64,000 bases of DNA from Desulfovibrio desulfuricans DSM 642 (lineage in GTDB: Bacteria > Desulfobacterota > Desulfovibrionia > Desulfovibrionales > Desulfovibrionaceae): positions 1-64,000 of the forward strand of contig NZ_ATUZ01000002.1 of NCBI RefSeq assembly GCF_000420465.1, written 5' to 3'. Shown here piece by piece: positions 11,374-61,936 of this stretch. The position numbers and the translations under genes are program-made. The notes beneath the pieces are model-generated. The model saw only the letters and a list, made by a program, of their open reading frames with translations, was not told the DNA's origin and did no database searches. Position 1 is the first letter of the stretch; each line of letters opens with the position of its first letter.

Positions 11374-11382
11374 GGTTCCCCC

Positions 11383-15505: not shown

Positions 15506-15578
15506 ATCTATATGCCATTTTTGCGTAAAATTGTCATATTCAAGCGGTAGCTCTGGCATCTTATGGCAGTCATGCGCT

Positions 15579-18372: not shown

Positions 18373-18390
18373 CAAAAATCAAAATACCGA

Positions 18391-18427: not shown

Positions 18428-18440
18428 TGGAGGCTAACTT

Positions 18441-19604: not shown

Positions 19605-19620
19605 GCTTCGGGAGATTATC

Positions 19621-20497: not shown

Positions 20498-20565
20498 GGG
20501 AATCTCCTTTGTCTTCATTGTGTACATTCAAGTTAAACGTGTCAATAGAACACACAGGAGAAGTG

Positions 20566-21591: not shown

Positions 21592-21600
21592 GAGGTTATA

Positions 21601-22638: not shown

Positions 22639-22642
22639 CATT

Positions 22643-28977: not shown

Positions 28978-29000
28978 TGAAAATGAATTTTCAATTCATT
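28978..29000 (-). promoter_or_regulatory. Fur-like iron box over the pchBA promoter
   Basis: Two overlapping dyads are present: TGAAAAT-GA-ATTTTCA at 28978-28993 and AATGAATTTTCAATTCATT at 28982-29000 (perfect 8-3-8). They resemble the overlapping-dyad structure of Fur boxes, and the TGAAAAT half-site resembles the motif proposed for Desulfovibrio Fur, from memory. A possible -35 element TTGAAA (minus strand, 28989-28994) lies within it, which would let Fur-Fe block RNA polymerase. A 60-codon ORF on the plus strand starting here is spurious. Confidence 0.6.
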
Positions 29001-35716: not shown

Positions 35717-35717
35717 G

Positions 35718-38700
35718 CTACGCCTCCCCCGCTGTTTCAAACCAGTCGACAAATTCTCCAAGCCACACCAGAAGCTGTTTGCGCTTCAGGCAGTCGGCGT
35801 GTGTTCCGGGTGAGGGAATTTTGTGGAGCAGGTCTGCCCTGTTACGCCAGAACTCAAAACCCTGCCCCTGTCCCACTATTTCCTGACTTTCCACAAAGGC
35901 GCTGGGCACGGCGGTTTTTTTATACTCCGCGCCCTCAAGCAGTGCGCACAGGCCGCCAAGGTTTTCCAGCAACTCAGGCGCGGAGTGTCCGGCCATACCC
36001 AGCACAATTCCTTCCAACATTGAAGCATTGTTGTGGATGCCGGGCGGAAGGGGCATGCAGTCAATCAGAACAAGCCTGTCCACCACGCGCCCCATTTCCT
36101 GCAGGTGTTCCGCCACCAGCCAGGCAAGCAGGCCTCCTGCGCAATAGCCCGCCACCCGTAGCGGGCCTTGCGGTTGTGCAAGTGAGATATGGCGGCACAA
36201 CCGCGCAACAGATGTTTCAAGGGTGTCACTTTTCATGGGCATCACGGATACTGTTTTCACGCTTCCCAGAGGCCAGTAGCGTGCAAAATCATGGAAACTG
36301 CTTCCGTCCGTCACCGCATCGCCGAGGCAGAACAGCACTTCTGAAGATGCTGACGAGCGCAGAGTGCCCACATTCGGCAACAAACGCTCGTCCAGGCAAT
36401 TGGCCATTTCGCTCACCACAGGGTGATCAAACACTGTCTGCAAAGGAAGTTTCAGACCGTACCGTTTTTTGACGAGCGCCTCCGCTCTTACCGCGCCAAG
36501 AGACTCCGCGCCCAGGGCAAAAACATTGTCCGCAGGGGCAACTGGCACGCCCAGCACCTCTCGCCAGACATCGCAGAGCATTGCCTCGGAAGAATACGAG
36601 GAAGTTGAAGGAGGAACGGCGCCCTGCGCACGGGCAACCGCCTGCCCGGCGAGTTCAGCAAGCGCGCGCCGGTCTATTTTTCCATTGGGGGTGAGGGGCA
36701 TTCGATCAACAACCCTGATGAGCGCGGGCACCATGTACCGGGGAAGTGCTTCCCCAAGCGCCTTTTGCAGAGCCTCCGCAGTTGGCGCGCTGGGCGTGTT
36801 GGCTGGAACCACAAAGGCTGCCAGTTGCCCCGCCCCTGCCAGCACAGCCGCGCAGAGCGCCACATCCGGCAGGGCGGCCAGAGCGGCCTCCACATCGCCA
36901 AGTTCTATGCGGAATCCGCCCACTTTAACCTGCGTGTCCAGACGGCCAAGAAATTCGATAGCTCCATCGGCATGCCTGACGCCCATATCGCCTGTTTTAT
37001 AGAGCCGCTCTCCGCCCGACGGCGAATGGACGAACCGCGCGGCTGTGAGCTCCAGATTATGCAGATACCCAAGGGCCAGCGCTGCGCCGCCGATATAGAG
37101 TTCTCCAGCCACATGTTCAGGGCATATACGCATATCCTCATGCCGCACCTGAAAACTCTGCCCGGCAAGGGCCTTGCCGTATGGGATACTCTGCCAGCCC
37201 GGCTGCGGGTCATCTGGAGCCATTTCGTGGCAGATTGACCAGATGCCAGCCTCTGTGGCTCCTCCCAGGCTCACCATATGCGTTGTCGGAAACCGCTTTG
37301 CGCTTTCGGCAGGCAAGCTCACAGGGATGCTGTCGCCGCTCAAAAAGGCCAGTCGCGGTGGTGTTTGGGGTATTTCGCCAGATTCAAGCAGCATCTGCCA
37401 GAACATGGGGACGGAATTCCATACAGTGACACCGTGCTGTTCCATGAGCACCCGCCATACATCCGGACGGCGGATGGTGGATTCACGGAGCATGACAACT
37501 CCCCCGCCAGCGGCCCATATACCAAAGAAATCGTACACGGAGAGGTCAAAGGTCAATGCCGACAGGGCAAGCACCCGATCATGCTCCCTAACGCAAAACC
37601 GCCTGTTGATTTCATCAATGGTCACCATTGCGGCGGCATGGCTCATCATGACGCCCTTGGGCACTCCCGTGGTGCCCGATGTAAATATAACGTATGCAAG
37701 CGAGCCGGGATCCGTGCGCAACAACGCATCCTGAACTATGGCTTGACCGCAATTTTCCGCTACGAGATCCCGAACAGGGCACATGGGCAGGCTATTCCAG
37801 TTTGCCGCGTCTTCGTCCATCAAGGACACCACGCAAGCGGGCCTTGCCTCGTCAAGCACGGCCTTACGGCGCGGCAACGGCCAATCGGGATCAATGGGAA
37901 CATAGGCCGCACCGGCAAAAAGCACGGCCAGCACCGCCACTGCCTGCTGATGCCCTCTTGGCAAGGCCACGGCCACGAGAGGAATTTCGTGACTCTTTGG
38001 AGCAATCAGGGCGGCAATCCTCCCCGCCAGCATGGCTGCTTCCCTGAAAAGTTCGCCGTAGGTCATCACCCTGTCTGCATCAATAACAGCCGTGTGGTCA
38101 GGATATTGAGCGGCATTGCGAACAAAGCCGGCATGCAGCAATTGCGCTTTTTCCTTCAGCGGCAAAGGCTGCTCCACCTTCACCTCGAACTCTGCGGGCA
38201 CATCGGCCATCCAGGCAGCATCGTCTTTGGCCAGTCGTTCAAGCGTACCGCAATAGGCCGCAAACATGCTGTCTATCATTCCAGCCGGGAACAGTTCTTC
38301 CACCACATCCCAGTAAATGCTCAGCGTTCCATCACGGTCGTGCACATGATTATCTATCCAGACCTGTGGTGTTTGGCTGATATTAAAAACTTCCCGCCCG
38401 AGAGAAGAAAATCCCTCAATGGACGATGCAAAACCTGTATCCGCCTTTTTTGCGAGGCCAAAGGTGCTGGTAAAAACAACAGGCATCCGCACTGATCGTG
38501 AGGAAGCTCCGTCACGTATTTTACGGCGCATGACCTCAATGCCGCTGACCTGGCAATATTTCAGCCCGTCAAAAACACGCTGCTGCACAGCCTTGACTTT
38601 GTCGGCAAAGGGCATACCCCGGCCTGTTTCGCAACGCACCAGTATACTTGATGTAAACTCGCCAAGCACATTGTTTACAGCGGGATGGAACGGCAGACGG

Positions 38701-41700
38701 GTGAAGACAGGGGCGTTGACCGTCAAACTGGAAGACCGGCTCCAAAGGCCCAGAACATCCGCATAGGCCGTGAGCAGCACAGAAGAAAACGTTACCCCAT
38801 GCCGCCCTGCGGCAGCTTTGAGAGCTTGCCACAAGTATGGAACCATACGGTAGTCGTGCCTGGCAAACCTGGGTTTTTCTATGCATTCTGGCTGTGTTGC
38901 CAGCGGCAGTTCCGGGGCTGGCGGCAGCAGTTTTGTCTCCGCATCCCAGTAGGCTTCTGCCTGCTGGTAGGCTTCTGTTCTGCGGTAACGCTCAAGCGCG
39001 GAAATATAGTCACGGAATGAGATTTCTTCCGGCGGCAGGGAGTGATCCGGATTATGGTACAAAGCAGCCCACTCTGCCAGAAGGATACTGATGCTCCTTC
39101 CATCCATCACCACATTGTCCATAAGCACATGCAAACGCCGCATTCTGCCGGAAAGCAACGAAACCTCCACATCAAACAGAGGCCACAGCATGGGATCGTG
39201 CACCTTGTGCGAAAGCCTGCCGCGTATGCCCACCAGCGCATCATTCCGCTCAGCGTCAGTCAGGCCCGTCAGGTCATGCACCGCAATGCTGAAATCCGGC
39301 GCACTTTCAAGTACGCGCTGCAATCCGTCCTCGCCAATTATGGTTCTCAGGGTATCATGTCGGGCTATCAGACATAGCCAGGCGCTTTGCAGCCGCTCCA
39401 CATCAAGATTTTCGCAGTCAAATTCGATGTATCCCTGGCAAGCGGTATTACCCAAGGCCATTTCCTGCCGACGGCCAATCCAGTAGGCCCGCTGCACATC
39501 CGTTAAGTTGAAAGGTTCGTACCGCTTGTGCGGCTCTGGAATAAACAACTCTGCAAGCGGGCTTGCGGTATTGCTCCCCAGTTTCAGGTCTGGCAGCAAC
39601 TTGGCCGTAATGTTTTCAACAGTGAAGTTCTGAAGCAGGCTGCTTGGCGAAATTTTGATATCCAGGTCTTTCTCAAGCCCATCTGTCATCTCTATGAACA
39701 TCAGGGAGTCCACACCCAGATCAAAGAGGCTTGCAGTGCGGCCAATGGATTCCACTCCTGTCTTCAGCAGTGCGGCAAAACGCTCTTTAAGCCACGCTTC
39801 CAGCATGGAGCGCCGTTCGTTTTCTCCCTTGGCGCTTCGCAGAGATGAAAGGATGTGTGACCGCTCCGCAACAGGGCTGGCCGTATTGACGCCATGCTTG
39901 GAGGACGTGACCGGTTGCGCCGCACCCCTGCCGCAAAACCGGGAAAAATAGGCAGGAAAGCGCTCCCCGTACTGCCTGAGCAGGCGTGACCAATCGACCT
40001 TCATCACCGCCAGATGCGCCGTATCTCTGCCAAGAACAGCGTTCAGCAGGGCCATGCCTTCAGCAGGTGAAAAACCGTATAGCCCGCCGTTGCGCAGATG
40101 GTCGGCCTGGGCAGGATCGGAAACCGTGCCGATGTCCTTCCACGCCCCCCAGCTGACGGAAAGCGCGGGCAAGCCCTGATCGCGCCGCCAGAGGGCAAGT
40201 GCGTCCAGATAGGTATTGGCGGCAACGTAATGTGGCAAACTGTACGGCGGAGCAATGCTGACCGAGGAGGAAAAGAACACCATCCTGTCCAGCGTCAGCT
40301 TGCGCTCCTCGGAAAGGCGGTGGAGATTCCATGCCCCAAGAACCTTTGGAGCCATAATCTGCCAGAAGGCGGGCCAGGGATCGCGTTCATCCGCACCGCT
40401 GACGCGCTTGACCACGGCGCAATGGTATACTGCGCGTATTGCGGCCTGTGATTCCAGATGGGCAGCTGCCAGTGCAAGTGCGGAGTAGTCCGTTACGTCG
40501 GCCTGAACACAAACTATACTTGCACCCTGTGCGCCGCTTTTTTCTATCTCTGCAATGGCTTGCAGTTCTTCCGGGCCGGGAGCGCGACGGCTGAGCAGTG
40601 CTATGCGCAGAAAACCCTGGGAAACCAGCTCCCTAGCCAAGGCCATTCCTATGCCGCCCAGACCTCCCACAATAACCTGCCAGCCTGTGGTGTCTGGCGT
40701 TTTGCCGCATGGGGGAAGATCCGCAATAGCCCGGCGCTCAAGCCTTGGCACCAGCCACTGCCCCCCATCGATGGCGTTGAGTTCTTCAGATTCTCCGCTT
40801 TCAAGCAGGTCAAAAAGAGTGCTTATGGTTCCGGCTGACGCATCGGCAAGGTCAAACTGGCGCAGCCCCAGTTCCGGATGGCCCATGGATACAACACGGT
40901 TCATTCCCCAATAGGTGGCCTGGGCCGGATGCAGCACAGTGCGCGCGGCCCCCTTGGTCAATGTAGCCCATTGCCATTTTGTTCCGCCCAGTTCTCTGGC
41001 GGTAAACAGCGAAAGCAGATGGAGCATTCCACCGCAAAGGCGCTCTTGCTCCGCGCAGTTTGTGCTGTGCGTTGTTTCGCTCAGGGCTCTTGCGTCAAGC
41101 ACGGTGCAGAGGGCCTGCCTATCTGTCCACTCCCGCAGGTCTGCCACCGTGCATTCTGCCGGAACAAGCGTAAGCACCAGACCGCGTTTTTTTGCCTCTG
41201 CCGCAAACTGTGGGGCATCTTCATGGGTTGCCAGCAGTAAAATTCTGCCCAGCCCGGCCCCCTTGCCCGTAATATCCCTTGGTTCCCAAACCGTCTGATA
41301 GGTGCACCCGGCAGGAAGCACCGCTCCTGCCTTGACGTTATTGGTCAGATACCGGGCCGAAAGCACCCTGTCCGGCAGGGCCGCCTCCGCCTGATCGTCA
41401 CGCGGCAAAATCTGGATATCGCCAAATCCGCTGGCAGCGAGCACAGACTCCCATGTTTTATTGGAGGCCATGGGCTGGATGCCACGGGCATCGCAATCCG
41501 TGATATCAGGCAGCAAAAGCCCCGTGGTTATCTCACCCAGAAAATTGGCACGGGTTATCTCATACAAAAGCAGCATGCCGCCAGGGCGCAGCAGTGAGGC
41601 CGCATGCCTTACGGCAACGCTCAGGTCTTTGGCGGCGTGCAGCACGTTTGCAGCGATGACGATATCATAGATGCCCGTCTCAACTCCCTGAATTTCCGGC

Positions 41701-44411
41701 CGCTCTTCCATGTTGAACAGACCGGTGCGAAGAAATCCATATTCTGAAAACCGCTGCTTTGCCTGTTTGAGAAACACGGGTGACACATCGGTAAACATGT
41801 ATGTGGATCTGTCTGGCGGCAACAGAGGCAAGATACGTTCGGCTGTGGCGGCTGTTCCACCGCCTATTTCAAAAATGCGTACAGCCTCTCCCGATGCCGT
41901 TTTTTCAAGCCATTCGCGCACATGCTCCCGCACAAGAGCGTTGAAATATACGGAATTGGGCAGTTCGGAATACACCCTGCGCGCTCCGCTCAGGTTGCCT
42001 CCCGGCATGAATGTTTCCCGCAGGTCAAGCTGCCCTGTCAGCAGATCGGGCAAGCGTTCCGCAGTGGAAAGAACTACGGATTCCATTGCCCCCCAGGCTT
42101 CCCAGACGGGTTGCGTTTCTGCCTCTAGCTCGCTGAATGCCGCTTCCGATACTTGCGCAAGATCATGATAAAAATCCCCATCGCGACGCAGCAGACCTTT
42201 TTCGTGCAGGGCCAGAAGCAGCCTTTCTACAAGCTGCGAGAACTGGGGGGGAATACGCATGGCTTCAAGCGCTTGGGCAACCGTTGCCCTGCTGGGGAAT
42301 CCCAGCCTGGCAAAGGCCCGTGCCACTGCGCCCGCGCACAGATTCTCCAGCAGAGCCTCACGTTCCACCAACATATGTGGTTCAAGAACATGCCCCGCTG
42401 TTGCAGCCATGCGCGCTGCTGCCGCCTGCGCGGCCTCTACCGGGTCATGCGGAACATATTCCCGCCGCTGCGCAAGCGCATGGCAGTACGTCGCCCGACA
42501 AAAGGGCGTGAGAGGAATACGTGTAATCCGTCCGTCAAGCAGGTGATCCCAGCCTATCTGTTTGCCAGAAGCATAGGCGCTGGCAACATGTTGCAAGAAA
42601 TGCAGCAGAGTTGCACCCGCATCGGGTGCAACTCTGAGTCGCAATGCCAATGGTTCGACTCCAATGGCCTGACAAAATTTATCCAGCGCATCGGCGCAAA
42701 ATTTCTGCTGCCCAAGAGCAGTTTCCAGATCCATTGCGGCCTCGGCAGCATACTGTCCAATGGTCTCACGCGCATTGCCAAACTTGTGGCAAAGACTTTG
42801 AAGCAGCGTTGCGGCAGGCATTACAGCCTCGATAGCGGTGTTTTCCTGCGCATTCTGCACAAGGACATTTTTTTGCGGATACGCTGCAAGCGCGGCCACA
42901 AGCTCCGCGCGGGATTTACCCACAAAAGCCATGCGGTAGGCCCGGTGGCTGCGGCGGCAGGCTGCTGTCCAGCAGGCGTGCGACAGGTGGGGGCACTGAG
43001 CGGCGTACTGCCGCCATATATCCACCAGCGCATCCAGCGCGCTTTGGGTGTGGGCTGAAAGCGGCAGTATAAACGGCCCATCATCGTCATATTTATTGGG
43101 TTCAGCCACTTCTGGCGCAGATTCAAGCACGATGGAAACGTTGGTCCCGCCAAAACCAAACGCATTGGCCATGGCGTAGCGTGTGGCATTCGTCCAGCGG
43201 GTTGCGGTTTTTCTGATAACAAAGGGGGTTTCGTTCAACCGCAAGGCAGGATTGGGCGAGCAAAAATTGGCAATCGGCGGCAACTCCGCCTTTTCAAGCG
43301 CCAGCATGGCCACCATGAAACCCGCTATGCCTGCCGCTGCGTCAAGGTGCCCAATATTGGCCTTTATAGCGCCAAGTGTGCAGTATTCCCTTTTGGAGGT
43401 TTCAAGGGCCCGCGTGAGGGCCTCTATCTCAATGGGGTCTCCTATTGCCGTTGCGGTGCCGTGAGTGGAAATGAATTCTATTTTCTCTGGCAAAACGCAA
43501 CTTACTCCAAGAGCCTCGGCCACAGCCGCAGCCTCGCCATGAACAGACGGAGCCGTATAGCCCACCTTGCTGGCCCCGTCATTGTTGACGGCGGTTCCGC
43601 GCACAATGGCATGGATGACATCTCCATCCCTGAGCGCCGCATCAAGCGGCTTAAGCAGGATGACCCCTACGCCGTTGCCGTTGACGGTTCCATCTGCCTG
43701 CGCGTCAAAAGGACGGCATACGCCGCTGCGCGAAAGAATAAGCCCTTCCCTGTGTCGGTATCCGTCCATCTGGGGCAAGGTTATGGACACCCCACCAGCC
43801 AGCGCCATATCGCATTCGCCCGCAAGCAGGCTCTGGCAGGCCAGGTGTATGGCGGTAAGCGATGACGAGCAGGCCGTCTGCACCGTAAGGCTGGGGCCTG
43901 TGAGATCAAGAAGATTGGAAATACGCGTGGCAAGGTAATCCCTGTCATTGCCAATGGCCATTTGCAATGCTTCCGTCACGCGGGCGGTTCCCGCGCCAAG
44001 GATAGCCGAAGGCAGATAACTGCTGTGGCTGGCAGATGCGTAGACCCCCACACGGTTTTCGTTGACGCCCGGCGCATAACCCGCACTTTCCAGAGCCTCG
44101 TATGCGCATTCGAGAAACTTACGCTGCTGCGGGTCCATCAACTCCGCCTCGTGAGCGCTTATACCAAAAAAACCGGCATCAAAGGCCATTACATCATCAA
44201 GACGACCCATGGCTGTAATGTAGCCATCCACACCGAGGTCGGCATCAGGAACGCCTCCAGCCCTCAAATCCTCAATTGCGGTATCTGTGGTACAATTGCG
44301 ACCAGTCCGCACGGCATCCCAAAATGCATCGAGCGATACCGCCCCCGGAAAACGTGCCGCTGCTCCGATAACCGCAACGGCATCAGGCCTGTCTTCATTC
44401 CACTTGGTCAT
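35718..44411 (-). CDS. Hybrid PKS-NRPS: KS-(no AT)-MT-KR-ACP-Cy-A-PCP-TE
   Basis: The ATG at 44411 follows TTGGAGAAG; ~2897 residues. KS: TACSSS (Cys181), ISTHGTATAIGDP, KANIGHLDAAAG. The KS-AT linker is followed by ~170 residues with no GHSxG, so the AT is missing. C-methyltransferase: EIGGGTAATAER (~848). KR: GGLGGIG (~1248) and YVAAN tyrosine (~1392), looks active. ACP: GVDSLMF (~1567). Cyclisation domain: DNVVMDGRS (~1764). Adenylation: IFTSGTTGVPKG (~2240), FDLSVYD, WNSVP, LSGDS, GGATEAGIW, a cysteine-type pocket. PCP: GAESLGAV (~2635). TE: GYCAGG (~2756), cysteine in place of serine. It is HMWP1-like but without AT and with its own A domain. It should add a methylated, reduced two-carbon unit and the last thiazoline, then release the chain. 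Confidence 0.9.
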   Translation of the reverse strand: MTKWNEDRPDAVAVIGAAARFPGAVSLDAFWDAVRTGRNCTTDTAIEDLRAGGVPDADLGVDGYITAMGRLDDVMAFDAGFFGISAHEAELMDPQQRKFLECAYEALESAGYAPGVNENRVGVYASASHSSYLPSAILGAGTARVTEALQMAIGNDRDYLATRISNLLDLTGPSLTVQTACSSSLTAIHLACQSLLAGECDMALAGGVSITLPQMDGYRHREGLILSRSGVCRPFDAQADGTVNGNGVGVILLKPLDAALRDGDVIHAIVRGTAVNNDGASKVGYTAPSVHGEAAAVAEALGVSCVLPEKIEFISTHGTATAIGDPIEIEALTRALETSKREYCTLGAIKANIGHLDAAAGIAGFMVAMLALEKAELPPIANFCSPNPALRLNETPFVIRKTATRWTNATRYAMANAFGFGGTNVSIVLESAPEVAEPNKYDDDGPFILPLSAHTQSALDALVDIWRQYAAQCPHLSHACWTAACRRSHRAYRMAFVGKSRAELVAALAAYPQKNVLVQNAQENTAIEAVMPAATLLQSLCHKFGNARETIGQYAAEAAMDLETALGQQKFCADALDKFCQAIGVEPLALRLRVAPDAGATLLHFLQHVASAYASGKQIGWDHLLDGRITRIPLTPFCRATYCHALAQRREYVPHDPVEAAQAAAARMAATAGHVLEPHMLVEREALLENLCAGAVARAFARLGFPSRATVAQALEAMRIPPQFSQLVERLLLALHEKGLLRRDGDFYHDLAQVSEAAFSELEAETQPVWEAWGAMESVVLSTAERLPDLLTGQLDLRETFMPGGNLSGARRVYSELPNSVYFNALVREHVREWLEKTASGEAVRIFEIGGGTAATAERILPLLPPDRSTYMFTDVSPVFLKQAKQRFSEYGFLRTGLFNMEERPEIQGVETGIYDIVIAANVLHAAKDLSVAVRHAASLLRPGGMLLLYEITRANFLGEITTGLLLPDITDCDARGIQPMASNKTWESVLAASGFGDIQILPRDDQAEAALPDRVLSARYLTNNVKAGAVLPAGCTYQTVWEPRDITGKGAGLGRILLLATHEDAPQFAAEAKKRGLVLTLVPAECTVADLREWTDRQALCTVLDARALSETTHSTNCAEQERLCGGMLHLLSLFTARELGGTKWQWATLTKGAARTVLHPAQATYWGMNRVVSMGHPELGLRQFDLADASAGTISTLFDLLESGESEELNAIDGGQWLVPRLERRAIADLPPCGKTPDTTGWQVIVGGLGGIGMALARELVSQGFLRIALLSRRAPGPEELQAIAEIEKSGAQGASIVCVQADVTDYSALALAAAHLESQAAIRAVYHCAVVKRVSGADERDPWPAFWQIMAPKVLGAWNLHRLSEERKLTLDRMVFFSSSVSIAPPYSLPHYVAANTYLDALALWRRDQGLPALSVSWGAWKDIGTVSDPAQADHLRNGGLYGFSPAEGMALLNAVLGRDTAHLAVMKVDWSRLLRQYGERFPAYFSRFCGRGAAQPVTSSKHGVNTASPVAERSHILSSLRSAKGENERRSMLEAWLKERFAALLKTGVESIGRTASLFDLGVDSLMFIEMTDGLEKDLDIKISPSSLLQNFTVENITAKLLPDLKLGSNTASPLAELFIPEPHKRYEPFNLTDVQRAYWIGRRQEMALGNTACQGYIEFDCENLDVERLQSAWLCLIARHDTLRTIIGEDGLQRVLESAPDFSIAVHDLTGLTDAERNDALVGIRGRLSHKVHDPMLWPLFDVEVSLLSGRMRRLHVLMDNVVMDGRSISILLAEWAALYHNPDHSLPPEEISFRDYISALERYRRTEAYQQAEAYWDAETKLLPPAPELPLATQPECIEKPRFARHDYRMVPYLWQALKAAAGRHGVTFSSVLLTAYADVLGLWSRSSSLTVNAPVFTRLPFHPAVNNVLGEFTSSILVRCETGRGMPFADKVKAVQQRVFDGLKYCQVSGIEVMRRKIRDGASSRSVRMPVVFTSTFGLAKKADTGFASSIEGFSSLGREVFNISQTPQVWIDNHVHDRDGTLSIYWDVVEELFPAGMIDSMFAAYCGTLERLAKDDAAWMADVPAEFEVKVEQPLPLKEKAQLLHAGFVRNAAQYPDHTAVIDADRVMTYGELFREAAMLAGRIAALIAPKSHEIPLVAVALPRGHQQAVAVLAVLFAGAAYVPIDPDWPLPRRKAVLDEARPACVVSLMDEDAANWNSLPMCPVRDLVAENCGQAIVQDALLRTDPGSLAYVIFTSGTTGVPKGVMMSHAAAMVTIDEINRRFCVREHDRVLALSALTFDLSVYDFFGIWAAGGGVVMLRESTIRRPDVWRVLMEQHGVTVWNSVPMFWQMLLESGEIPQTPPRLAFLSGDSIPVSLPAESAKRFPTTHMVSLGGATEAGIWSICHEMAPDDPQPGWQSIPYGKALAGQSFQVRHEDMRICPEHVAGELYIGGAALALGYLHNLELTAARFVHSPSGGERLYKTGDMGVRHADGAIEFLGRLDTQVKVGGFRIELGDVEAALAALPDVALCAAVLAGAGQLAAFVVPANTPSAPTAEALQKALGEALPRYMVPALIRVVDRMPLTPNGKIDRRALAELAGQAVARAQGAVPPSTSSYSSEAMLCDVWREVLGVPVAPADNVFALGAESLGAVRAEALVKKRYGLKLPLQTVFDHPVVSEMANCLDERLLPNVGTLRSSASSEVLFCLGDAVTDGSSFHDFARYWPLGSVKTVSVMPMKSDTLETSVARLCRHISLAQPQGPLRVAGYCAGGLLAWLVAEHLQEMGRVVDRLVLIDCMPLPPGIHNNASMLEGIVLGMAGHSAPELLENLGGLCALLEGAEYKKTAVPSAFVESQEIVGQGQGFEFWRNRADLLHKIPSPGTHADCLKRKQLLVWLGEFVDWFETAGEA

Positions 44412-44506
44412 CCGTCTTCTCCAATTTCTTTGGCAAAAAAGCGCGGTAATGCGCATCCGGCATATGTCTGTGCATGCGCCATCCCGGCAATTATGAAAAA
44501 TACGTC

Positions 44507-47500: not shown

Positions 47501-47848
47501 AGGCGGCACCTTCGGCAAGATGTGAAACATGCCCTCACGCGTTACCGTGGCGCGCAGCATGTCGTGACGGGCAATAACCCTGTCCCAGGCTTTTTGTAGT
47601 CGTTCAACATCCAGCTCGCCGCAATCAAACTCCTGATATCCGTGGCTCCCCACGCCGCTCAGGTTGACGCCAGCCGTGCGTCCAATCCAGTAGGCGCGCT
47701 GCACGTCCGTCATGGGAAATTCCTGGGGCACGCCCTCCTGCACAGGGCAAGAATTCTGTTCACGGACGGTGCTGTGCTCTACCCGGGCAAGCCCCTTTTG
47801 CCCTGCCAGTCGGGAAAAAAGCTGCAACTGTTCGGCGCTGAAACTCAT
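44507..47848 (-). CDS. NRPS module Cy-A-PCP (cysteine)
   Basis: In this 1113-residue module the heterocyclisation domain has DVQRAYWIGR and the Cy signature DAVMADVYS (D-x4-D-x2-S) near residue 175. The adenylation domain has YVIFTSGTTGTPKG near 650 and pocket motifs [25 protein letters not shown] and [10 protein letters not shown], which agree with the cysteine code (D, L, Y, N, ..., I, W) as recalled. The PCP serine is in LGATSLLM near 1044. It starts with an ATGA overlap on the preceding PKS gene. By gene order it accepts the chain from that PKS and adds the second thiazoline. The tail after the PCP is basic. Confidence 0.92.
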   Translation of the reverse strand: MSFSAEQLQLFSRLAGQKGLARVEHSTVREQNSCPVQEGVPQEFPMTDVQRAYWIGRTAGVNLSGVGSHGYQEFDCGELDVERLQKAWDRVIARHDMLRATVTREGMFHILPKVPPLRWEIEDLRQLDTAEKEQRLAARRNKLSHRVPDLSVWPVITLGASIIADDFVRVHLSCDAVMADVYSIGNCLRELSFFYTHPQGDMPVPGMTFGQYVEEQKRKEETSFYHECRKYWQNRLADFPAAPQLPTQEAQPQVQRFKRLKAGLEPEQWAAFKAMCNRHALTPSVVLYTVFAAVMGQWAARPDFCLNITVFNRESENPAIQQVVGDFTTTMLSAARKMRPQESFIEYARELDARFWQDVEHSAYSGIKVLQDISERQRRPVLMPIVFTSALGAGDVGEILDTNNGVFGKPAYTITQTPQIWLDHQVLEEDGRLVFNWDVVEGIFDEALQNAIFRCYGSLVEALCKPDADWQQPVMPELPEEQMVRRHDAEPCFEDDGHLLHQGFLEHVLAFPNKRAVIAPDRTLTFGELFQAAYAVARQLTGALPQNTQNVLVAVGLPKGWEQIAAVMGILLTGAAYVPIDPTWPRARRSAILQQGVMAVVADQGAAAHDWDDLPLAVVRQEDASVDAAADAAADALVAARQTSPDRLAYVIFTSGTTGTPKGVMMTHRAVQNTIRDINSRFGVSSNDSVFAISALSFDLSVYDIFGLLSAGGHLVLPDEREIRDPSAWVRRLARHPATLWNSVPMLWQMFVEHGTAVEHMPRLALLSGDWIPPRLPGDSAHFSPATMLISLGGATEAAIWSIAYEMSPNDPPAGWKSIPYGRALANQKMLVLHEDMTPCPDDVPGELYIGGRGLAMGYLGDRALTDQRFITHPRSGERLYRTGDMARWRGNGQIEFMGRNDTQVKVNGFRIELGDIETALASLPGVQAAVAAIMPLAGAGKGLVGYVVPQQSQRSLSQNDLHTALRARLPLYMVPQHYVVLEQLPLSDNGKVDRKSLPAPQLEEAATQEKGTELEERIREVVGLHLGISSFGLHDRFFDLGATSLLMVKIHRSLNQILPQQIALIQLFEAPSVHALASLIIKGRADAPGKGRSHAEKRLAARNSRRGKAVQP

Positions 47849-50800
47849 GACAAGGCCTCCAGTGACGCAGAAACATCCTCTGGGCGCATGTGCTTTACAG
47901 ATTCAAGCAGTTCTGCGAGGGCAAACAGCCTTTCCTTTTCCTCCTGCGATTCGGTCAGGTAGTCTGCAATGTTCGCCACAGTCCGTTGACGGAATATTTG
48001 CGCTACGCTGAACGCGGAGAGATCAAAGAGATCACGGATTTCTTTTGCCAGGGGCATGGCCATGAGGCTGTCGCCCCCAAGCTCCACATAGTCATCATCA
48101 ATGCCTATGCCGCTTAAGCCAAGGCGCGACTCAAAAAGATCAACAAGAGCCCGGTCCAGCGCATGACGTGCTCCGCGCCATTCCACCATCAGCGGGGGGC
48201 GCTGCCCAACGCTTCCTTCGGCCTTGAGGTCGGCCGACTCAAGAGCATCCGTTGCAAGCCCGCGCTTGGTTCGCGCCTCTTCAAGCATGGCGGCAAGGCT
48301 GCAACCGCTGACAACAGGAAGCTCCACCATTATTCCGAGGCAAGTCTTAACCGCCGCAAGGGCTGCATCTGGAGCGATGCCCCCCTTCAGCTCCTCTCCG
48401 GAAAGCCGTGCATGCAGTGAAGCCATCTTGTTGATCATGCCCACCTGACGCCATACGTCCCAGCGTATGCCCATGACGCGTGTTCCCGCGCGCTGCTGCT
48501 GCATGGCCCAGGCATCCAGCACTATGTTGGCTACAGTGTTATCCAGTTGTCCAACAGAACCGCACAATGCGCCTATGGATGTATTAAAAACAACAAAATC
48601 AACGTTACAAAACTTCAGCACCTTTTCAATGCCAAGCAATGGAATAACCTTGGCGCTCCAGTTTTCCGTCTTTTCAACGGACAAACTTTGCGCCTGCATC
48701 AATCCACCGCCAGTGACGCCGCTGGCATGCACAATTCCAGCCACATCTTTATGTTCAGCAAGCACCTCATCCAATACCTGCATAAGTTCATTCTGCTTGC
48801 TGAGGTCGACATAGCGCGGCCTGACAATCGCCCACTCACTAGCGCAGTTCTCCCAGAATTCTGCGGATCGGCGCGTTTTCTGTAGGGGGACAAGTGTTAT
48901 GCGGCGCTGCTGCTCGGCTGCCTGCCTGGCCAGATCGAGCATGAATGTTCGGCCAATGCCGCCACTGCCGCCAAAAACAAGGTAGGCCGCCCCTTCACGC
49001 AGATGAATGTGCTCTTTTATATTTTCAGACTGCTGCACGCATTCAGGTTGCTCCTGCCAGAAAATTCCGGCGCGCACAGCCACAAGAGACGTCAGCGCGG
49101 TAGCCGCCATGCGGTTGCTCACAGCCTTTTCCAGCAGGTCGGCTAGTACCGGGGCGGAAAGTCCTTCTTCCACATCCAGCACGCAAGCCAGGGTATTTCT
49201 GGCCTCAAACGGCAGCACACGGGCAGGAGCCAGCAAGGCGCTTCTGTCAATGATCGGCAGGACCGTACCAAAGGCCGCCACCCCGGAGGTGAGCCAGTAA
49301 ACACTCATGGCCTGCCCGTTGGCGCACTCGGCCAGCCATGCGCACAACTCCGCCGCCTCCCCGCACGTACGCGCCGCAGATGCCAGTGAATTACCGCCTT
49401 GTCCGGCAAAACGGCAGTCCACCAATGTATCCGGCAGGACACTACTGCCCTGCAAATCCGCAAGTGTTTTGAACAGCAGGGCATTCCAGCCACGCTGGCG
49501 CAACGCCTCGGCAACATCCGCCCCATCTTTGCCCAAAAATCCTATAACGCCCTGGGGCATTGCGGGCATTGTCACAGGTATCTGCCGCCAGCAGAGGACA
49601 GAAATCTCCATTCCCTGATCCGCAGACATCTTGCTGTCCGCCATATGCCGTTCAAGCCAATACCGCTGGCGCTCAAAGGGATAGGCCGGCAAAGGCACAG
49701 CGTGCCCGCCGCCGCTCAGGGCATCTATTTTTGCCCAGTCAGCGCGGCCTCCCTGTTGCCAGAGTTGTCCTATGGCTTCCAGAAGGGCCATATGCTCCCC
49801 GGTCTTGCTCTGTTCTGAAGGCATCACGGGAATAATCGGCGAGTGTTTTTTGAAGGCCGGATGGCGGCGCAGCATGGCGCTCAGCTTTCGCGCAGGGCCA
49901 ACTTCAAGCAATACGGCCTCGCCCTCATGGCACAATGTGGATATCTGGTCAGATAGCTGCACAGGGGCGCACAACTGGCGAACCCAGTATTCGGCATCCG
50001 TGGCTTCAGCTTCTGTGAGCCAGCTTCCTGTGACATTTGAAAGTATGGGCAGTTGCGGTCTGTGCAGCTCAACGCCCTCAAAGGCCTTGCGCAGCAGCGG
50101 CATGGCGAAATGCAGCAGGCTGGAGTGGCCCGCCTTTTCTGCTGCCAGTTTTGAGAACGGCAGGTCTGCCGCATTCAGCGCAGCCTCAAGCGCATTGATT
50201 CCATGCGCAGTGCCGGAGGCAACGCATCCATTGGGCGTGATTACAGTTGCAATGCTTACCCCTTCTGGCAAAAGGAGTTGCAGCTTTTCTGACGCCATCG
50301 GCACAAAAAGCATGGCCCCTGACGGGGAATCGTCAATAAGCCGTGATCGTTCTGCAATGAGGCGAACGGCGTCGTTCTCGGCAAAGACCCCCGCCACGGT
50401 TGCGGCTACGTACTCCCCTGCCGAATGCCCCATCACAAAGGAGGGCTGTATTCCAAAATCTTGCAACAGCATCGCCAGCGCGTATTCCACGGCAAACAGG
50501 GCAAACGTACCCAGACGCGTATCTGTGGACACTTCCTGACGATCAAGCGCCGCAGCCACGTCAATCCCGGTCTCATGCTGAAACAGCGCGCATATTCTAT
50601 TGAAAACATTTCCAAATTCTGAATGTAATGCGCAAAGCTCCCTTGCCATGCCCGGATACTGCGATCCGAAACCGGGGAACAGAAAAGCCACGGGCCGGGC
50701 CTTGTCTGGATCGTCCAGCCTGTTTGCCCGGCGCAACAAAGCCGAAGATTGCAGCGTGCGCAAAAGCGACTCCGAATCCTGACAAACAAGGCTCAGGCGG

Positions 50801-52236
50801 CAGGCCTGCATGTCGCGCCCCAAAAGCAGCGTATGCGCGAGGTCAGCCAGCGGGACAGGATGCGCCTGCCCCCATGTGCTCAGTTCCACCACCTTTTTTT
50901 CAAGAGCGGCAGTGGTTTTGGCGGAAAGGGTAATCAAGGTTGCGCCAGGGGCATCCGTAGCTGTTGACTCCGGGCCTTCCTCCAAAATCAGATGCACATT
51001 GTTGCCGCCTATACCCAGTGAATTTACCGCTGCAACGCGGGTTTTGCCTGCCGCAACAGTCCAGGCTTCTGTTTTGCTGGCAATTCTAAAAGGGGTAGCC
51101 TCCAGCGCCAGCCTCGGATTGGGCGCGTGAAAATCCAGCGAGGCGGGGATAACCTTGTGATGCAGCGCCAGCGCTGTCTTGATCAGGCTGGCAACGCCTG
51201 CGGCGGCGTTCAGATGCCCTATGCCAGTTTTTACTGACCCCAGGCGGCAATACTGGCGGGGAGCGCTTTGGGGAATTGCCCATGCCTGAGTAAGGGCCGC
51301 AACTTCCATGGGGTCGCCAATGGGCGTCCCTGTGCCGTGCCCCTCCACAAGGCCAATTTCCAGAGGGTCAACACCAGACATAGCCAGAGCATCGGCAATG
51401 ACCGCCGCCTGACCAGACACGGACGGCGCGTAAAATCCCGTTTTGTCCGAGCCATCGTTGCCAATGGCATAGCCGGAAATGACGGCATAAATGATATCCC
51501 TGTCGCGCAACGCGTCATCCAGGCGTTTGAGCACGACAACACCAACCCCTTCCCCTTCATTCACTCCACTGGCATCATCGCTGTAGGCGCGGACATGCCC
51601 ATCGCATGAAAGCGGGCCTTCCGGCTCATAGCTGTAGCCGGGGCTCACCCCGGCCTTCAGCCCCGCACCGCCCGCCAAAGCCACATCGCACTGCCCGGCG
51701 AGAAGAGCCTGACAAGCCATCGCCGCAGCCGCAAGGGACGATGAGCAGGCGCTTTGCACCGTCATTGCTGGACCTTTCAGGTTCAGCTTATACGCAACAC
51801 GCGCAGCCAGATAATCCTTGTCGCTGGCTGCAAGCATATCCACCAGATCAAGGGGCTTGGCGTCCAGAATCCTGTCTGCAAACCGCAATGCGTAGCCGTT
51901 GAAATTGCAACTTCCAAACACACCAACAAACTGACCGCTGGCTTTGGGGGCAATGCCCGCATGCTCCAGAGCCGCATACGCGCATTCAAGAAAAATTCGG
52001 TGCTGCGGGTCCAGCATTCTTGCTTCGCGCGCGGGAACATCAAAAAAATCGCCATCAAACATATCTTTGTTTTCAAGCGCAAAGCCGTAGTGAACCAAAC
52101 CATCGTCAGCATCGGCCAACATCTTCCCACCGGAAATTCCGGCTTGCAGATTTTCCCAGAAAGCATCCAGGTTTTCCGCACCAGGAAAGCGCCCAGCCAT
52201 GCCAACTATTGCTATTTTTAAAGAATTTTCTGTCAT
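47845..52236 (-). CDS. Type I PKS module KS-AT-KR-ACP
   Basis: The start at 52236 lies one base after the NRPS stop, with an AGGAGG site; 1463 residues. KS: SACSSSLAAAA (~162), EGHGTGTPIGDP, KTGIGHLNAAAG. AT: FPGFGSQYPGMA, active site GHSAGEY (Ser605), and KAGHSSLL (His ~702) where malonyl enzymes have HAFH and methylmalonyl enzymes YASH; xAGH is the motif described for ethylmalonyl ATs. KR: GGSGGIG (~1088), but the catalytic tyrosine position reads N in QLDNTVAN (~1233), so reduction is doubtful. ACP: LGGDSLM (~1389). It extends the first thiazoline by one, probably ethyl-branched, ketide unit. Yersiniabactin has no counterpart at this position. Confidence 0.9.
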   Translation of the reverse strand: MTENSLKIAIVGMAGRFPGAENLDAFWENLQAGISGGKMLADADDGLVHYGFALENKDMFDGDFFDVPAREARMLDPQHRIFLECAYAALEHAGIAPKASGQFVGVFGSCNFNGYALRFADRILDAKPLDLVDMLAASDKDYLAARVAYKLNLKGPAMTVQSACSSSLAAAAMACQALLAGQCDVALAGGAGLKAGVSPGYSYEPEGPLSCDGHVRAYSDDASGVNEGEGVGVVVLKRLDDALRDRDIIYAVISGYAIGNDGSDKTGFYAPSVSGQAAVIADALAMSGVDPLEIGLVEGHGTGTPIGDPMEVAALTQAWAIPQSAPRQYCRLGSVKTGIGHLNAAAGVASLIKTALALHHKVIPASLDFHAPNPRLALEATPFRIASKTEAWTVAAGKTRVAAVNSLGIGGNNVHLILEEGPESTATDAPGATLITLSAKTTAALEKKVVELSTWGQAHPVPLADLAHTLLLGRDMQACRLSLVCQDSESLLRTLQSSALLRRANRLDDPDKARPVAFLFPGFGSQYPGMARELCALHSEFGNVFNRICALFQHETGIDVAAALDRQEVSTDTRLGTFALFAVEYALAMLLQDFGIQPSFVMGHSAGEYVAATVAGVFAENDAVRLIAERSRLIDDSPSGAMLFVPMASEKLQLLLPEGVSIATVITPNGCVASGTAHGINALEAALNAADLPFSKLAAEKAGHSSLLHFAMPLLRKAFEGVELHRPQLPILSNVTGSWLTEAEATDAEYWVRQLCAPVQLSDQISTLCHEGEAVLLEVGPARKLSAMLRRHPAFKKHSPIIPVMPSEQSKTGEHMALLEAIGQLWQQGGRADWAKIDALSGGGHAVPLPAYPFERQRYWLERHMADSKMSADQGMEISVLCWRQIPVTMPAMPQGVIGFLGKDGADVAEALRQRGWNALLFKTLADLQGSSVLPDTLVDCRFAGQGGNSLASAARTCGEAAELCAWLAECANGQAMSVYWLTSGVAAFGTVLPIIDRSALLAPARVLPFEARNTLACVLDVEEGLSAPVLADLLEKAVSNRMAATALTSLVAVRAGIFWQEQPECVQQSENIKEHIHLREGAAYLVFGGSGGIGRTFMLDLARQAAEQQRRITLVPLQKTRRSAEFWENCASEWAIVRPRYVDLSKQNELMQVLDEVLAEHKDVAGIVHASGVTGGGLMQAQSLSVEKTENWSAKVIPLLGIEKVLKFCNVDFVVFNTSIGALCGSVGQLDNTVANIVLDAWAMQQQRAGTRVMGIRWDVWRQVGMINKMASLHARLSGEELKGGIAPDAALAAVKTCLGIMVELPVVSGCSLAAMLEEARTKRGLATDALESADLKAEGSVGQRPPLMVEWRGARHALDRALVDLFESRLGLSGIGIDDDYVELGGDSLMAMPLAKEIRDLFDLSAFSVAQIFRQRTVANIADYLTESQEEKERLFALAELLESVKHMRPEDVSASLEALS

Positions 52237-52237
52237 G

Positions 52238-55200
52238 TTACCTCCTGGGGCGGACGCGGGACGCCATGGCGCGGAGCTTTTCAACGCGGCCTTGAGTGTG
52301 CCCGGATTCTGTGGAACAGAGCACTTCGGCATCAATGAGGTGCTTCGCCTGACTGGCTATGGTTGTGTACTGAAAAACAGAAAGAACAGGCACAGGCCGC
52401 TGCAATACCGCCGTGAGCCTGGTGGACAGCTGCATGGCAAGAAATGAAGTCCCGCCTGCATCAAAAAAGGATACCGATACGCCCGGCCGCGCTCCATTGA
52501 GCACGGATGCCCACGCATCCGCTATCTGCTGCTCGGCCTTTGTTTCAGGAACAGACGCCTCTCTGGCGCGGGGCTTGCTCAGGGAGGTCTTTGCCCGGGC
52601 AGTCAAGGCGCGCCGGTCAACCTTGCCGTTGGCAGTGAGCGGGAATGTTGATTCCAGACAAATTTCCGCTGGCAGCCAGGAATAAGGCAACCGACCTTTC
52701 AGGGCCAGGCCGATACGCTGGGCGTCCAACTTGTGATCTCCGTCCGGCTGGGCAAAAGCCACGATTTTTATACTCTGCGAGTGCTCGGCCACAACGGCAA
52801 CGGCCTGCCGCACACCGGGCATCTCTGCAATGGCTGATTCAATTTCACCAAGCTCAATGCGCATGCCGTTGATTTTGACCTGCGTGTCATCGCGGCCCAT
52901 AAATTCAATATCGCCATCAGGCAGCATTCTTCCCCAGTCGCCGGTTCGGTAGAGCCGCTCGCCAGTCTGAGGGTGAGAAAAAAACGATTGTTCCGTCAGT
53001 TCCGGCCTGTGCAGATATTCCTGCGCGAGCCCCACTCCCGCGATGTATATTTCGCCGGGTACCCACAGGGGGCATGGCCTCATGGATGCATCCAGAACGT
53101 AGAGCATCTGACCGGAAAGCGGTTTTCCATAAGGAACTGTCTTCTGCCCCGGCAAAAGCGCATCCACAACTTTTTCAACTGACCAGATTGCGGCTTCTGT
53201 CGCTCCGCCCATGCTGACCAGACGCGGTTCTTGCGGCAAGGCAAGGATGCTGGCGGCCAATTCTACTGGCAGCCAGTCTCCACTGAGCATAAAGAGGCGC
53301 AAATGCTTCAGGCCTCCTCCTGTGGCTTTGGCTGAATCCAGCAGCAATTGCGCCAGCGCTGGCACAGAGTTCCACACAGTAACCTGCGTATGCTCCACCA
53401 GCCTTACCCACTCCAGAGGTTCGGCAAAATCCGCGTCCTGTGGCAAAACCAAAGCCGCGCCAGCCGCCAGAGTGCCGAAGATATCGTAGACGGAAAGATC
53501 AAAGTTGAGTTGTGAGATGCCAAACACCCTGTCATTTGGGCCCACGGCATTCCTGGAATTGACATCTAAAATCGTATTCAGCGCGGATTGATGCGAAACT
53601 GCCACGCCCTTGGGTTTGCCCGTGGACCCAGAAGTAAAAATCACATAGGCCGTGGCTTCCGGATCGACATCCACCGAGGCGTCAGCCGCAACAGTCTGTC
53701 CGCTGGATTGCTTCTTGCCAGCTCCAGTTGCCCTTGTACCCCCCGTGTCATTTCCGGAAAAATCCGCAAGCAGCAGAGGTGTGTTTTCGACAGAAATTTC
53801 TGCAAGCTGGCAGTCTGCGTCAGCCAGAAATCCTTGTTTTTTCCCATCGCACAGGGCAAGACGAACGCCGCCTTCCGCAAGGATGGTCAAAATACGGCTT
53901 TGCGGGTCGTTGACGTTCATGGGCAAGTATGCCGCCCCAGCGCGCAGCACCGCCAGTACGGCCACCACCTGAAGCCATCCCTTGGGAAGGGCAATGCCAA
54001 CCAGTTCCCCCTTGTTGAGCAGCGGCTCCGAGGTCAGCCGACGGGCCAGATCCCCGCTGAGCCTATCCAGTTCGCCGTAAGAGAGCGTCTTCTCGGGTGT
54101 AATGAGGGCGGTTGCCGCAGGGCAGGACGCGGCGCGCTTCAAAAAAGGCCCTGTCAGGCTCTGCCGGGCAGGCGGCAACAAGGCCAGAGATGCTGGCTGG
54201 ATACGCGGCTGCCGCACGGTCTGAGCAGACATCCCCCACACCCCGCCGTCCGACAGGGCATGGGCCAGAGCTACAAACTTCTCAAACATGCTTTCAATAA
54301 GGTCGGGAGGGAAAAGACCTTGGGGATAATCCCAAACCAGCGAAAGTCCATCGCGATATTCCACAACCTGCGCGTCTATCCATGTCTGCGGAGCCTGATT
54401 GCAGGCAAAAATCAGCTCTCCGAAGCGTGAAGCCGCATCCAGATAGCTGCCGCCTGCAATGCCCGTGGCGCAGGTCAACACAACGGGAAGTGGGTTTTCG
54501 TTGGGTGTAGCGTGAGCGCGGGCGATGATTGCATTGACCTCGGCCCCGCTGATATCCGCATGCGACAGCGCCTGACAAATATCCTCATGGGCGGCGCGGC
54601 ATAGCGCAAGAAAAGTCTGCCCCGCACCAGCGCGCACCGTCACCGGCAGCATTGAGGTAAAATCACCCAACACGCCGTCATAGGCTGCTCTTTCCCCTGC
54701 CCGGTCAAACAGGGTCAGGTTCAGCGTCATGTGAGGCGAACGGCTGAACCGCGAAAGAGTTTCACCAAGAATGGCAGCGAACATTCCCGCAGCTGTCACC
54801 CCAGCCCTTGCCGCGTGACTTTTGAGGCTTTGCCATGCATCGGCCTGCATGTGCGACGCAAGCCGACCTATGACGGGCGGCGTGAGTTCTCTTGGCTGAT
54901 GGGCAAACGGCAACTGGGGCGCTAGGGGCAACTGCGCCGCGCGCGCCTGCCACCACTCCCGGTGCCTCTTTGCAGACGCCAGTTCTTTGCTGGCCTCAGC
55001 TTGCGCTACATATTGTGAGAACTGTCTGTTACTGATGCAGGCTTTTTTCTGCTGCCCAGTGTAAAGACCGTGCAGCTCGTTCAGCCACAAAGCCAGAGAG
55101 GCCACATCAAGCAGCAGGATATCAAAGCTGATATGGAGATATGCGCAAGGCGCGTTGTCCGTTCCGCTCACGCATATGTTAAACAGCGGCCACGTTTCCG

Positions 55201-55789
55201 CTGGCAGCACTTCCGCCCGCATCTCCTCCCTGCACTCTGCCGTGGCATGCGTGCCGCAACGGCTGTGTATACGGTACCAGGGAACCTCTGGCAGCACCTT
55301 TTGCTGCCCATCTGGCGTCAGCACTGTCCGCAGCATGGGATGGGCCAGTATTGTCTGGTTGAGGGCTTTTTCCAGACGCGGCAGATCAAATTTTCCCTTT
55401 GGCTCATGAATTTCCAGATAGCCGTGCGCGGCAATTCCCCCCAGGGGAAAAACCGTTTGACGCCCCAGCCAGTAAGCCCGCTGCATATCCGTGAGCGCAA
55501 AGGGCTGCCCGTCGATGATGCGTTCCGGCTCCTGCTCCACAGAGCATCTTCTGCCCTGCTCCACCAACCGAACCCAGCTTCCCAAGGTTGCATCTTTCAG
55601 CATATCCGCAAGCTTGACGCTAACGCCAGCTTTTTTGAGCATAACAGGCAGGCGCATCATCATGAGCGAACTCATGCCAAGCTCTATGAGGGAATCTTCG
55701 TCTCCTATCAATTCCGGGGAGCAATCAAGAACTTCCGCAATCCAGCGGCGCAAGCCGAGGCGCGATAGTATCGGAGCTTCAGCATTCAT
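52238..55789 (-). CDS. NRPS ArCP-Cy-A-PCP (HMWP2/PchE-like loading module)
   Basis: The ATG at 55789 after AAAGGAG overlaps the ligase gene by 11 bases; 1183 residues. The aryl carrier domain at the N-terminus has its phosphopantetheine serine in [10 protein letters not shown] (~40). The cyclisation domain has DILLLDVAS (~223). The adenylation domain has [14 protein letters not shown] (~715) with pocket motifs [24 protein letters not shown] and [10 protein letters not shown], indicating cysteine. The PCP is GGTSFLAM (~1112). Salicylate is loaded on the ArCP by the adjacent ligase, then condensed with cysteine and cyclised to hydroxyphenyl-thiazoline. Unlike HMWP2 and PchE, no methyltransferase or epimerase insertion is apparent in the A domain. 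Confidence 0.92.
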
Positions 55790-58790: not shown

Positions 58791-58884
58791 ACGCATCCTT
58801 GAAATTTACAACTGTTGCCTTCAGTTGATGCCTATAAGCTAAAGAATATATCCAAATTCAGCTGTGCGCCCAGGTTGGAAAGGC

Positions 58885-61921: not shown

Positions 61922-61936
61922 TGAATTCTCCGCCAT

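Follow-up and report, generated by a model that had tools for sequence, protein, structure and literature searches.

Anatomy of a predicted salicyl-thiazoline assembly line with two polyketide modules and one acyltransferase in Desulfovibrio desulfuricans DSM 642

The 64,000-base stretch of Desulfovibrio desulfuricans DSM 642 analysed here (the window; the first 64,000 of the 68,342 bases of contig C2, NZ_ATUZ01000002.1, in a genome of 3.39 Mb) carries a gene cluster that, judged from its sequence, is a conserved Desulfovibrio assembly line of nonribosomal peptide synthetase (NRPS) and polyketide synthase (PKS) modules for a salicyl-thiazoline product. We favour, with moderate rather than strong confidence, a metallophore that has a salicyl cap, three thiazolines and two ketides; the first ketide would likely carry an alkyl branch fed by a crotonyl-CoA carboxylase/reductase-like enzyme (CCR) and the second would likely be loaded in trans. 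The synthase is encoded by four adjoining genes on the minus strand, which Pfam searches place in the transcription order P4, P3, P2 and P1; predicted starts were trimmed to those of the orthologues (P4, ATG at 55789; P3, ATG at 52236; P1, at about 44411). Their domains are the aryl, peptidyl and acyl carrier proteins (ArCP, PCP, ACP), cyclization (Cy), adenylation (A), ketosynthase (KS), acyltransferase (AT), ketoreductase (KR), methyltransferase (MT) and thioesterase (TE) domains.

52238..55789, minus strand: P4, ArCP-Cy-A(Cys)-PCP, predicted to form thiazoline 1 (Pfam and translation)
47845..52236, minus strand: P3, KS-AT-KR-ACP, first PKS module; AT site KAGH, KR with Asn in place of Tyr (Pfam and alignments)
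44507..47848, minus strand: P2, Cy-A(Cys)-PCP, predicted to form thiazoline 2 (Pfam and translation)
35718..44411, minus strand: P1, KS-MT-KR-ACP-Cy-A(Cys)-PCP-TE with no AT after the KS, second PKS module, predicted to form thiazoline 3 and to release the product; TE with Cys (Pfam and alignments)

Modules, salicylate supply and distribution

Pfam and the translations bear out the module order that an earlier note, made from the letters alone, had proposed (ArCP-Cy-A-PCP, KS-AT-KR-ACP, Cy-A-PCP, KS-MT-KR-ACP-Cy-A-PCP-TE), and the Pfam gene order places the additional PKS module ahead of the second Cy-A-PCP, where the note had it. As also claimed there, each cysteine module has an A domain of its own, and the four motifs FDLSVYD, WNSVP, LSGD and GGATEA[AG]IW are present in all three. 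The specificity codes, read by hand at what we take to be the code positions, are DLYNMSMIWK (P4), DLYNLSLIWK (P2) and DLYNFSLIWK (P1); all three agree with what we assume to be the cysteine consensus and gave no sign of another amino acid. The note had correctly given the last module without an AT, and had passed no comment on this absence, on the Asn of the P3 KR, on the CCR gene and the AT site, or on the Cys of the TE. The three Cy domains keep the DxxxxD motif (DILLLD, DAVMAD and DNVVMD), and the active-site Cys and two His are intact in both KS domains. At E <= 0.001, Pfam searches found no dehydratase (DH) or enoyl reductase (ER) domain on the line, and a thiazolinyl reductase (TIGR01761) had no match in the genome of the strain.

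The genes that this class of assembly line uses for salicylate synthesis and activation are all present, namely an isochorismate synthase, a PchB-like lyase and a DhbE/PchD-like ligase:

28627..28944, minus strand: PchB-like isochorismate pyruvate lyase (PchB, E 7.5e-29; PF01817)
27227..28630, minus strand: isochorismate synthase (TIGR00543, 322.5 bits against a cut-off of 224.75)
55779..57452, minus strand: aryl-AMP ligase, predicted to activate salicylate (closest solved relatives DhbE and PchD)

PchB itself accounts for five of the seven solved matches of the PchB-like lyase (each with E at or below 6e-28), and weak chorismate mutases make up the rest. Where DhbE has Ser and PchD has Cys, the ligase has Ala; this position presumably separates dihydroxybenzoate from salicylate ligases. 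In the related genome G007 (locus L031) the isochorismate synthase match is split over two separate frames, and that copy may be broken.

From the aryl-AMP ligase through the ABC transporter pair described below, neighbouring genes overlap or lie no more than 100 bases apart. The order of the synthase genes is the same in G042 (96-97% identity) and in G007 and G021 (60-70%), and in G001 the genes are found on contig pieces at 91-95% identity; because order and identity recur in related genomes, a chance explanation of the gene set is ruled out. P3 has orthologues in 5 of 79 genomes of the genus, own genome (G000) included, and at the family level in the same number of 288 genomes, all in one of 44 genera (E <= 1e-200). 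A scan of the genome collection with P2 returned eight relatives, the closest being a contig of a D. desulfuricans metagenome-assembled genome (92%) and Desulfovibrio sp. OH1186_COT-070 (69%), with the remaining six at 28-40%. Relatives in the databases stand at 48-96%. On plasmids, 981 records contain relatives, all below 60% identity (the 15 matches listed are at 33-38%), and of three plasmid stretches retrieved the two that were read have xAFH as AT site. Just past the tonB gene of the cluster lies a gene for a protein that resembles tyrosine recombinases (weak match to XerC) and has DUF6538 (L009 6845-8284, contig 66845-68284); the cluster may be part of an integrating element.

The second polyketide module

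Pfam found no AT (PF00698) in P1, and the protein contains no GHSxG[EQ] motif. In a search over 5.8 billion proteins, among the best 120 of 985 hits, precomputed Pfam annotation shows no PF00698 in the ten nearest relatives of P1, of which P0133 is a fragment with this region largely missing; an AT is present in the five that rank after them, which come from Methylobacterium, Methylorubrum, Veronia and two other sources. Measured between shared landmarks, the stretch is 430 residues long in P1, 668-687 in the five AT-bearing proteins and 356-432 in the AT-less relatives except P0133, and the linker that follows an AT is still recognisable in P1. The AT sites of the five sisters are HPFH (two), HAFH (one) and DAFH (two), all malonyl-like. 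Taken together, the sites of the sisters, the landmark spacing and the retained linker indicate that P1 most likely lost its AT from a malonyl-type module. A fold prediction of the P1 linker, with four sequences, gave a mean pLDDT of 44.4 and was not used.

Since the module lacks an AT, its extender unit is likely loaded in trans. The whole genome has three AT-family matches, which are that of P3, a FabD-sized frame on contig C11 and an AT with a carrier protein on contig C17; FabD would be the most likely loader because the AT kept by the sisters of P1 has a malonyl-like site. The C17 protein (L048 7548-11156) has 1202 aa, with an AT and a carrier domain and no KS hit. One could also regard the AT-less module as non-functional, which would count against the product that we favour, although the orthologues keep its active sites, namely the Tyr of the KR, the glycine motif of the MT and the Cys and His of the KS, all present in P1.

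The best placed of the other explanations, which we hold to be doubtful and still worth weighing, is that the P3 AT serves its own module in cis and that of P1 as well, in trans, so that the second ketide would carry an alkyl group and one methyl. The line does have one AT for two KS domains, and sharing of this kind is presumably paralleled by the single A domain of yersiniabactin synthesis, which serves several modules. The cousin clusters of G061, G016 and G035 likewise have one AT per three KS domains in the 40-kb stretches fetched, and the P1 KS falls outside both groups of the KS tree that hold the AT-less KS domains of the cousins, so that AT sparing seems to have had several origins within the genus; this speaks for a shared AT. 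Set against it are the AT sites of the sister modules, which have Phe and look malonyl-like whereas that of P3 is KAGH, so the ancestral unit of the second PKS module was probably malonyl, and the presence of a FabD-sized AT elsewhere in the genome. The cousin loci are L034-L037, L039 and L040, and one AT-less module of G061 carries DH, ER and KR domains.

P1 ends in a TE whose nucleophile is Cys (GYCAGG, compared with GYSAGC in the surfactin enzyme). Eight of the ten AT-less proteins for which the TE letters could be read, P1 included, have this Cys and two have Ser, and Ser is found in all four AT-bearing sisters with letters. The two Ser-type proteins led us to reject the Cys as a defining feature of the AT-less group.

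The first polyketide module and its extender unit

The KS and AT active sites of P3 are intact. Its KR keeps the nucleotide motif and has Asn in place of the catalytic Tyr, a replacement that 19 of the 21 aligned rows share; G009 and G030, which lack it, are more distant, and the best four of 21 solved KR matches all have Tyr. Without the catalytic Tyr the P3 KR would not be expected to reduce its substrate, so the first ketide is likely a beta-keto unit.

The specificity site of the P3 AT is KAGH, and the Gly at its third place would, as we assume, fit larger extender units. According to a review, YASH marks methylmalonyl and HAFH malonyl (PMC6164871). A candidate source of a larger unit is encoded downstream of P1:

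33633..34958, minus strand: CCR-like protein, predicted to make an alkylmalonyl extender (TIGR01751, 416.9 bits against a cut-off of 378.55)

This protein aligns over most of its length to solved CCRs (6owe among them). Three of the four residues that presumably form the CO2 pocket (N81, E171 and H365, in a numbering that we take as correct) are kept and the fourth, F170, is Tyr; its activity is a prediction. At E <= 1e-60 the gene occurs in 7 of 79 genomes of the genus, and all five genomes that bear the line are among them. It adjoins the P1 region in G000, G042, G007 and on a contig piece of G001, and G021 has a copy of 45% identity elsewhere in the cluster, beside the second ABC gene, so that a CCR-type gene stands in or beside the cluster in every line-bearing genome, once in divergent form. 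In G030 the CCR lies on a 5-kb contig that contains no synthase gene. Matches to CCR at 24-28% in the cousin clusters were set aside, as they look like ER domains of PKSs, which Pfam confirmed for G061, the one scanned.

The AT site and the CCR gene occur together. Thirty-one ATs were read, that of P3 in the window and 30 from selected loci of the genus; this leaves out G059 (cut before the site), a duplicate of G030 and a degenerate AT of G009 that gave no match. Six of them, from G000, G042, G001, G007, G021 and G030, have [KR][AP]GH and the other 25 have xAFH. All six genomes with the former site have a CCR, compared with none of 23 other genomes (chance value 2.1e-6, kinship ignored). Methylmalonyl-CoA mutase (PF01642), crotonase (PF00378), MaoC hydratase (PF01575) and acyl-CoA dehydrogenase (PF00441) have no match in the host genome, and a substituted malonyl unit would thus likely have the CCR as its source. 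We consider it likely, from these sequence comparisons, that the first ketide carries an alkyl branch made by the CCR-like enzyme of the cluster.

Several observations weigh against this assignment. The genomes that share the AT site and the CCR are related, so their counts are not independent; two of the 25 xAFH ATs belong to other PKSs of the CCR-bearing G007 and G000; and G048 bears a CCR, yet no AT of this kind was found there. Sites of the [KR]AGH type also occur in metagenomic and alphaproteobacterial homologues, and the CCR counts cover the genus only. The Asn-for-Tyr KR and the Gly-site AT are likewise found in homologues outside the genus and thus were not shaped by this line alone. 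Furthermore, the absence of crotonase, MaoC hydratase and acyl-CoA dehydrogenase matches means that no canonical route to crotonyl-CoA was found in the host, which leaves the source of the CCR substrate without an explanation. The AT motif taken by itself was rejected as proof of ethylmalonyl, since [KR]AGH is present in P0019, P0025, P0062, P0064, P0072, P0073 and P0080, outside the close family; hence the argument for ethylmalonyl comes from the co-occurrence with the CCR. In G048 (L047) the CCR lies near a thioesterase, an AMP ligase and a frame read by eye as ArCP-Cy, and the locus ends at the contig end.

These same observations lend something to the view, to us rather unlikely, that the P3 AT uses plain malonyl-CoA and that the CCR-like enzyme acts as a trans enoyl reductase or in primary metabolism, leaving the ketide unbranched: the canonical enoyl-CoA supply is missing from the host genome, and xAGH ATs also occur in proteins beyond the CCR counts. 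A trans enoyl reductase would need an enoyl substrate, and no DH was found on the line to provide it; primary metabolism or not, plain malonyl sits poorly with the co-occurrence of AT site and CCR (6/6 as opposed to 0/23 genomes read) and with the place of the gene in or beside the cluster in 5/5 genomes, divergent in one.

Function, precedents and proposed product

The genes flanking the synthase are as follows:

34955..35761, minus strand: stand-alone (type II) thioesterase (PF00975)
31840..33636, minus strand: ABC transporter half that has both a membrane and an ATPase part (full-length match to YbtP, 6p6i, 271.6 bits)
30128..31909, minus strand: second ABC transporter half of the pair (domain searches)
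29275..30015, minus strand: stand-alone methyltransferase (domain searches)
57552..58796, minus strand: major facilitator superfamily (MFS) transporter (best NCBIfam match RhtX/FptX siderophore transporters, 151 bits, far below the 356-bit cut-off)
58885..60021, minus strand: ABC-2 permease, predicted exporter with the ATPase and HlyD adaptor (PF12698)
60021..60971, minus strand: ABC transporter ATPase (PF00005)
60968..61936, minus strand: HlyD-type periplasmic adaptor (PF13437)
62003..64000, continuing to contig 64309, minus strand: TonB-dependent siderophore-type receptor (domain searches)
28978..28993, no strand: perfect inverted repeat TGAAAATGAATTTTCA, candidate regulator site, 33 bases before the PchB-like start

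The receptor is followed by ExbD, ExbB and TonB, up to contig position 66197 and thus beyond the window. By analogy, metal uptake is our best guess for the function because the ABC pair, the MFS transporter, the ABC-2/HlyD exporter, the receptor and TonB, ExbB and ExbD are co-located. On the opposite side of the balance, the first ABC half scores higher against generic ABCB exporters (top 319.4 bits) than against YbtP (271.6), and Fur patterns gave seven weak matches where 3.7 were expected, with no match to the classical box; as these searches gave no clear signal, regulation by Fur was dropped. The inverted repeat may be a regulator site and is a lead only: it was noticed after the fact, and although G042, which is nearly identical, has it too, the sequence before pchB in G007 does not.

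Two further explanations concern the product and its use. If the modules acted out of order, or the AT-less module were skipped, a shorter or rearranged thiazoline would result, for example salicyl-thiazoline-thiazoline. The bilothiazoles described from the bil cluster expressed in E. coli are acids with two rings in which the later PKS part is missing (PMC11934131), and photoxenobactin lines release at several stages (PMC9396620); we nevertheless regard this as unlikely here, given the identical gene order in G042, G007 and G021, the close packing of the genes (overlaps or gaps under 100 bases) and the retained catalytic residues of P1. A mainly antibiotic product is improbable, as the synthase genes have those for TonB, ExbB, ExbD and a siderophore-type receptor as neighbours, even though some bilothiazoles are antibacterial (PMC11934131), the cluster has its own ABC-2/HlyD exporter genes and the ABC pair is at least as exporter-like as YbtP-like.

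Among the product families found in the open literature, the closest described is that of the lusichelins (lus, Lusitaniella coriacea; PMC12210259). They share with this line the salicylate start, cysteine-predicted A domains, a terminal thiazoline carboxyl (isolated as the methyl ester), type I and stand-alone type II TEs, a TonB receptor and, if the line is colinear, the placement of one PKS module between rings 1 and 2 and of another before the last thiazoline. The lusichelin line differs in having four cysteines and one thiazole, KR-DH and KR-DH-ER modules, a malonyl-type AT in LusU (GHSVG, HAFH), a bifunctional salicylate synthase and a cyanobacterial host, and the part of the source at hand mentions no CCR; the line described here has three cysteine modules, no DH or ER, and a PKS module that lacks an AT. 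Of the earlier note's view, the salicyl-thiazoline NRPS/PKS line with three cysteine modules therefore stands, and the ketide-between-rings order as a scaffold not yet described does not, since the lusichelins precede it (PMC12210259).

Other families are further removed. Bilothiazoles (bil, Bilophila) also come from Desulfovibrionia and from an AMP ligase with NRPS/PKS genes containing cysteine Cy modules, but bil has three core genes and four modules, with two cysteines before the PKS, and gives two-ring acids and ring-opened forms (PMC11934131). Sorangibactin and coelibactin share the salicylate cap and a terminal TE with a Cys nucleophile, which sorangibactin requires and which yields a thiolactone; unlike the present line they are described as an NRPS cluster, with oxazole and N-methyl-thiazolidines and thiolactone release (PMC10127202). 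Yersiniabactin, piscibactin and photoxenobactin are made on salicylate-capped Cy lines with a ketide before the later thiazoline, the type II TE is common to lines of this kind and to ours, and in yersiniabactin the MT of the PKS module bismethylates C-14 (PMC9396620). The line is not a classical trans-AT PKS either, as P3 has its own AT and the cluster contains no discrete one. Among the papers listed from the open literature, judged by title and the start of the abstract, none dealt with this module order with three cysteines or with a Desulfovibrio member of the class, and the Bilophila bil cluster was the only one of its kind for Desulfovibrionia; subscription papers, preprints and MIBiG lay outside these searches.

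The yersiniabactin line uses one A domain for all of its cysteines and a single PKS module, KS-AT-MT-KR-ACP, with its own AT. The present line has three A domains, two PKS modules, one AT and no thiazolinyl reductase match, and with its MT-bearing PKS module free of an AT it falls outside the yersiniabactin family proper.

If the line is colinear, its gene and domain anatomy suggests the following route. The isochorismate synthase and the PchB homologue would make salicylate, which the AMP ligase would load onto P4, where the first cysteine would become thiazoline 1. The P3 AT would take an alkylmalonyl-CoA, ethylmalonyl being the simplest guess, and the P3 KR, lacking its catalytic Tyr, would leave the beta-keto group, after which P2 would add thiazoline 2. 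An outside transacylase, most likely FabD, would place malonyl on the P1 ACP; the alpha carbon would receive one or two methyl groups from the P1 MT, and the P1 KR would reduce the second ketide. Thiazoline 3 would arise on the last Cy-A-PCP, the product would then be set free by the Cys-type TE, and the TonB receptor with an inner-membrane importer would, by analogy and gene neighbourhood, serve metal acquisition. For ethylmalonyl, keto and gem-dimethyl units the computed reference product is C24H29N3O5S3 ([M+H]+ 536.134). Colinearity is an assumption of this route, and the structure is predicted from the genes. Our more specific proposal is tentative, and we put it at somewhat below even: a metallophore cluster in a sulfate reducer that has its own extender enzyme and would divide the branching between two devices, in which module 1 would combine a CCR-fed Gly-site AT with a dead KR, and the AT-less module 2 would rely on methylation from S-adenosylmethionine and borrow FabD or the P3 AT.

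The remainder of the window holds a type I restriction-modification locus (7187-16652; HsdR, HsdS and HsdM) with a Fic/DOC protein between HsdS and HsdM (12614-13411), a further HsdS-like frame of half size (14906-15640) and a candidate defence protein (DUF4917/PDC-S21; 15579-16652). It is preceded by a DUF5655 and weak NucS_C-like protein that matches the candidate defence family PDC-S18 (6024-7019) and followed by ERF recombinase, AAA_5 ATPase, DUF3150 and CobT/VWA-like genes, perhaps a mobile element (17671-24340). Elsewhere in the genome there is a second very large NRPS/PKS frame (within the stretch C13 46001-66000, L049; 5441 aa in that stretch, 5621 aa as an open frame).

The AT-bearing and AT-less sisters of P1, which share the same flanking domains, offer a compact test of how a cis-AT module could shed its AT and still work, and our reading links an AT specificity signature to an extender-making gene within one genus. 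Sulfide competes for metals in the host. If our reading is right, the line would add a new metal-binding scaffold from a lineage for which natural-product knowledge is described, in the Bilophila paper, as very limited (PMC11934131). Should the more specific proposal be true, its product would be the first CCR-branched thiazoline metallophore found in the open literature, and the line would be a mirror image of that of yersiniabactin, which spares A domains, not ATs.

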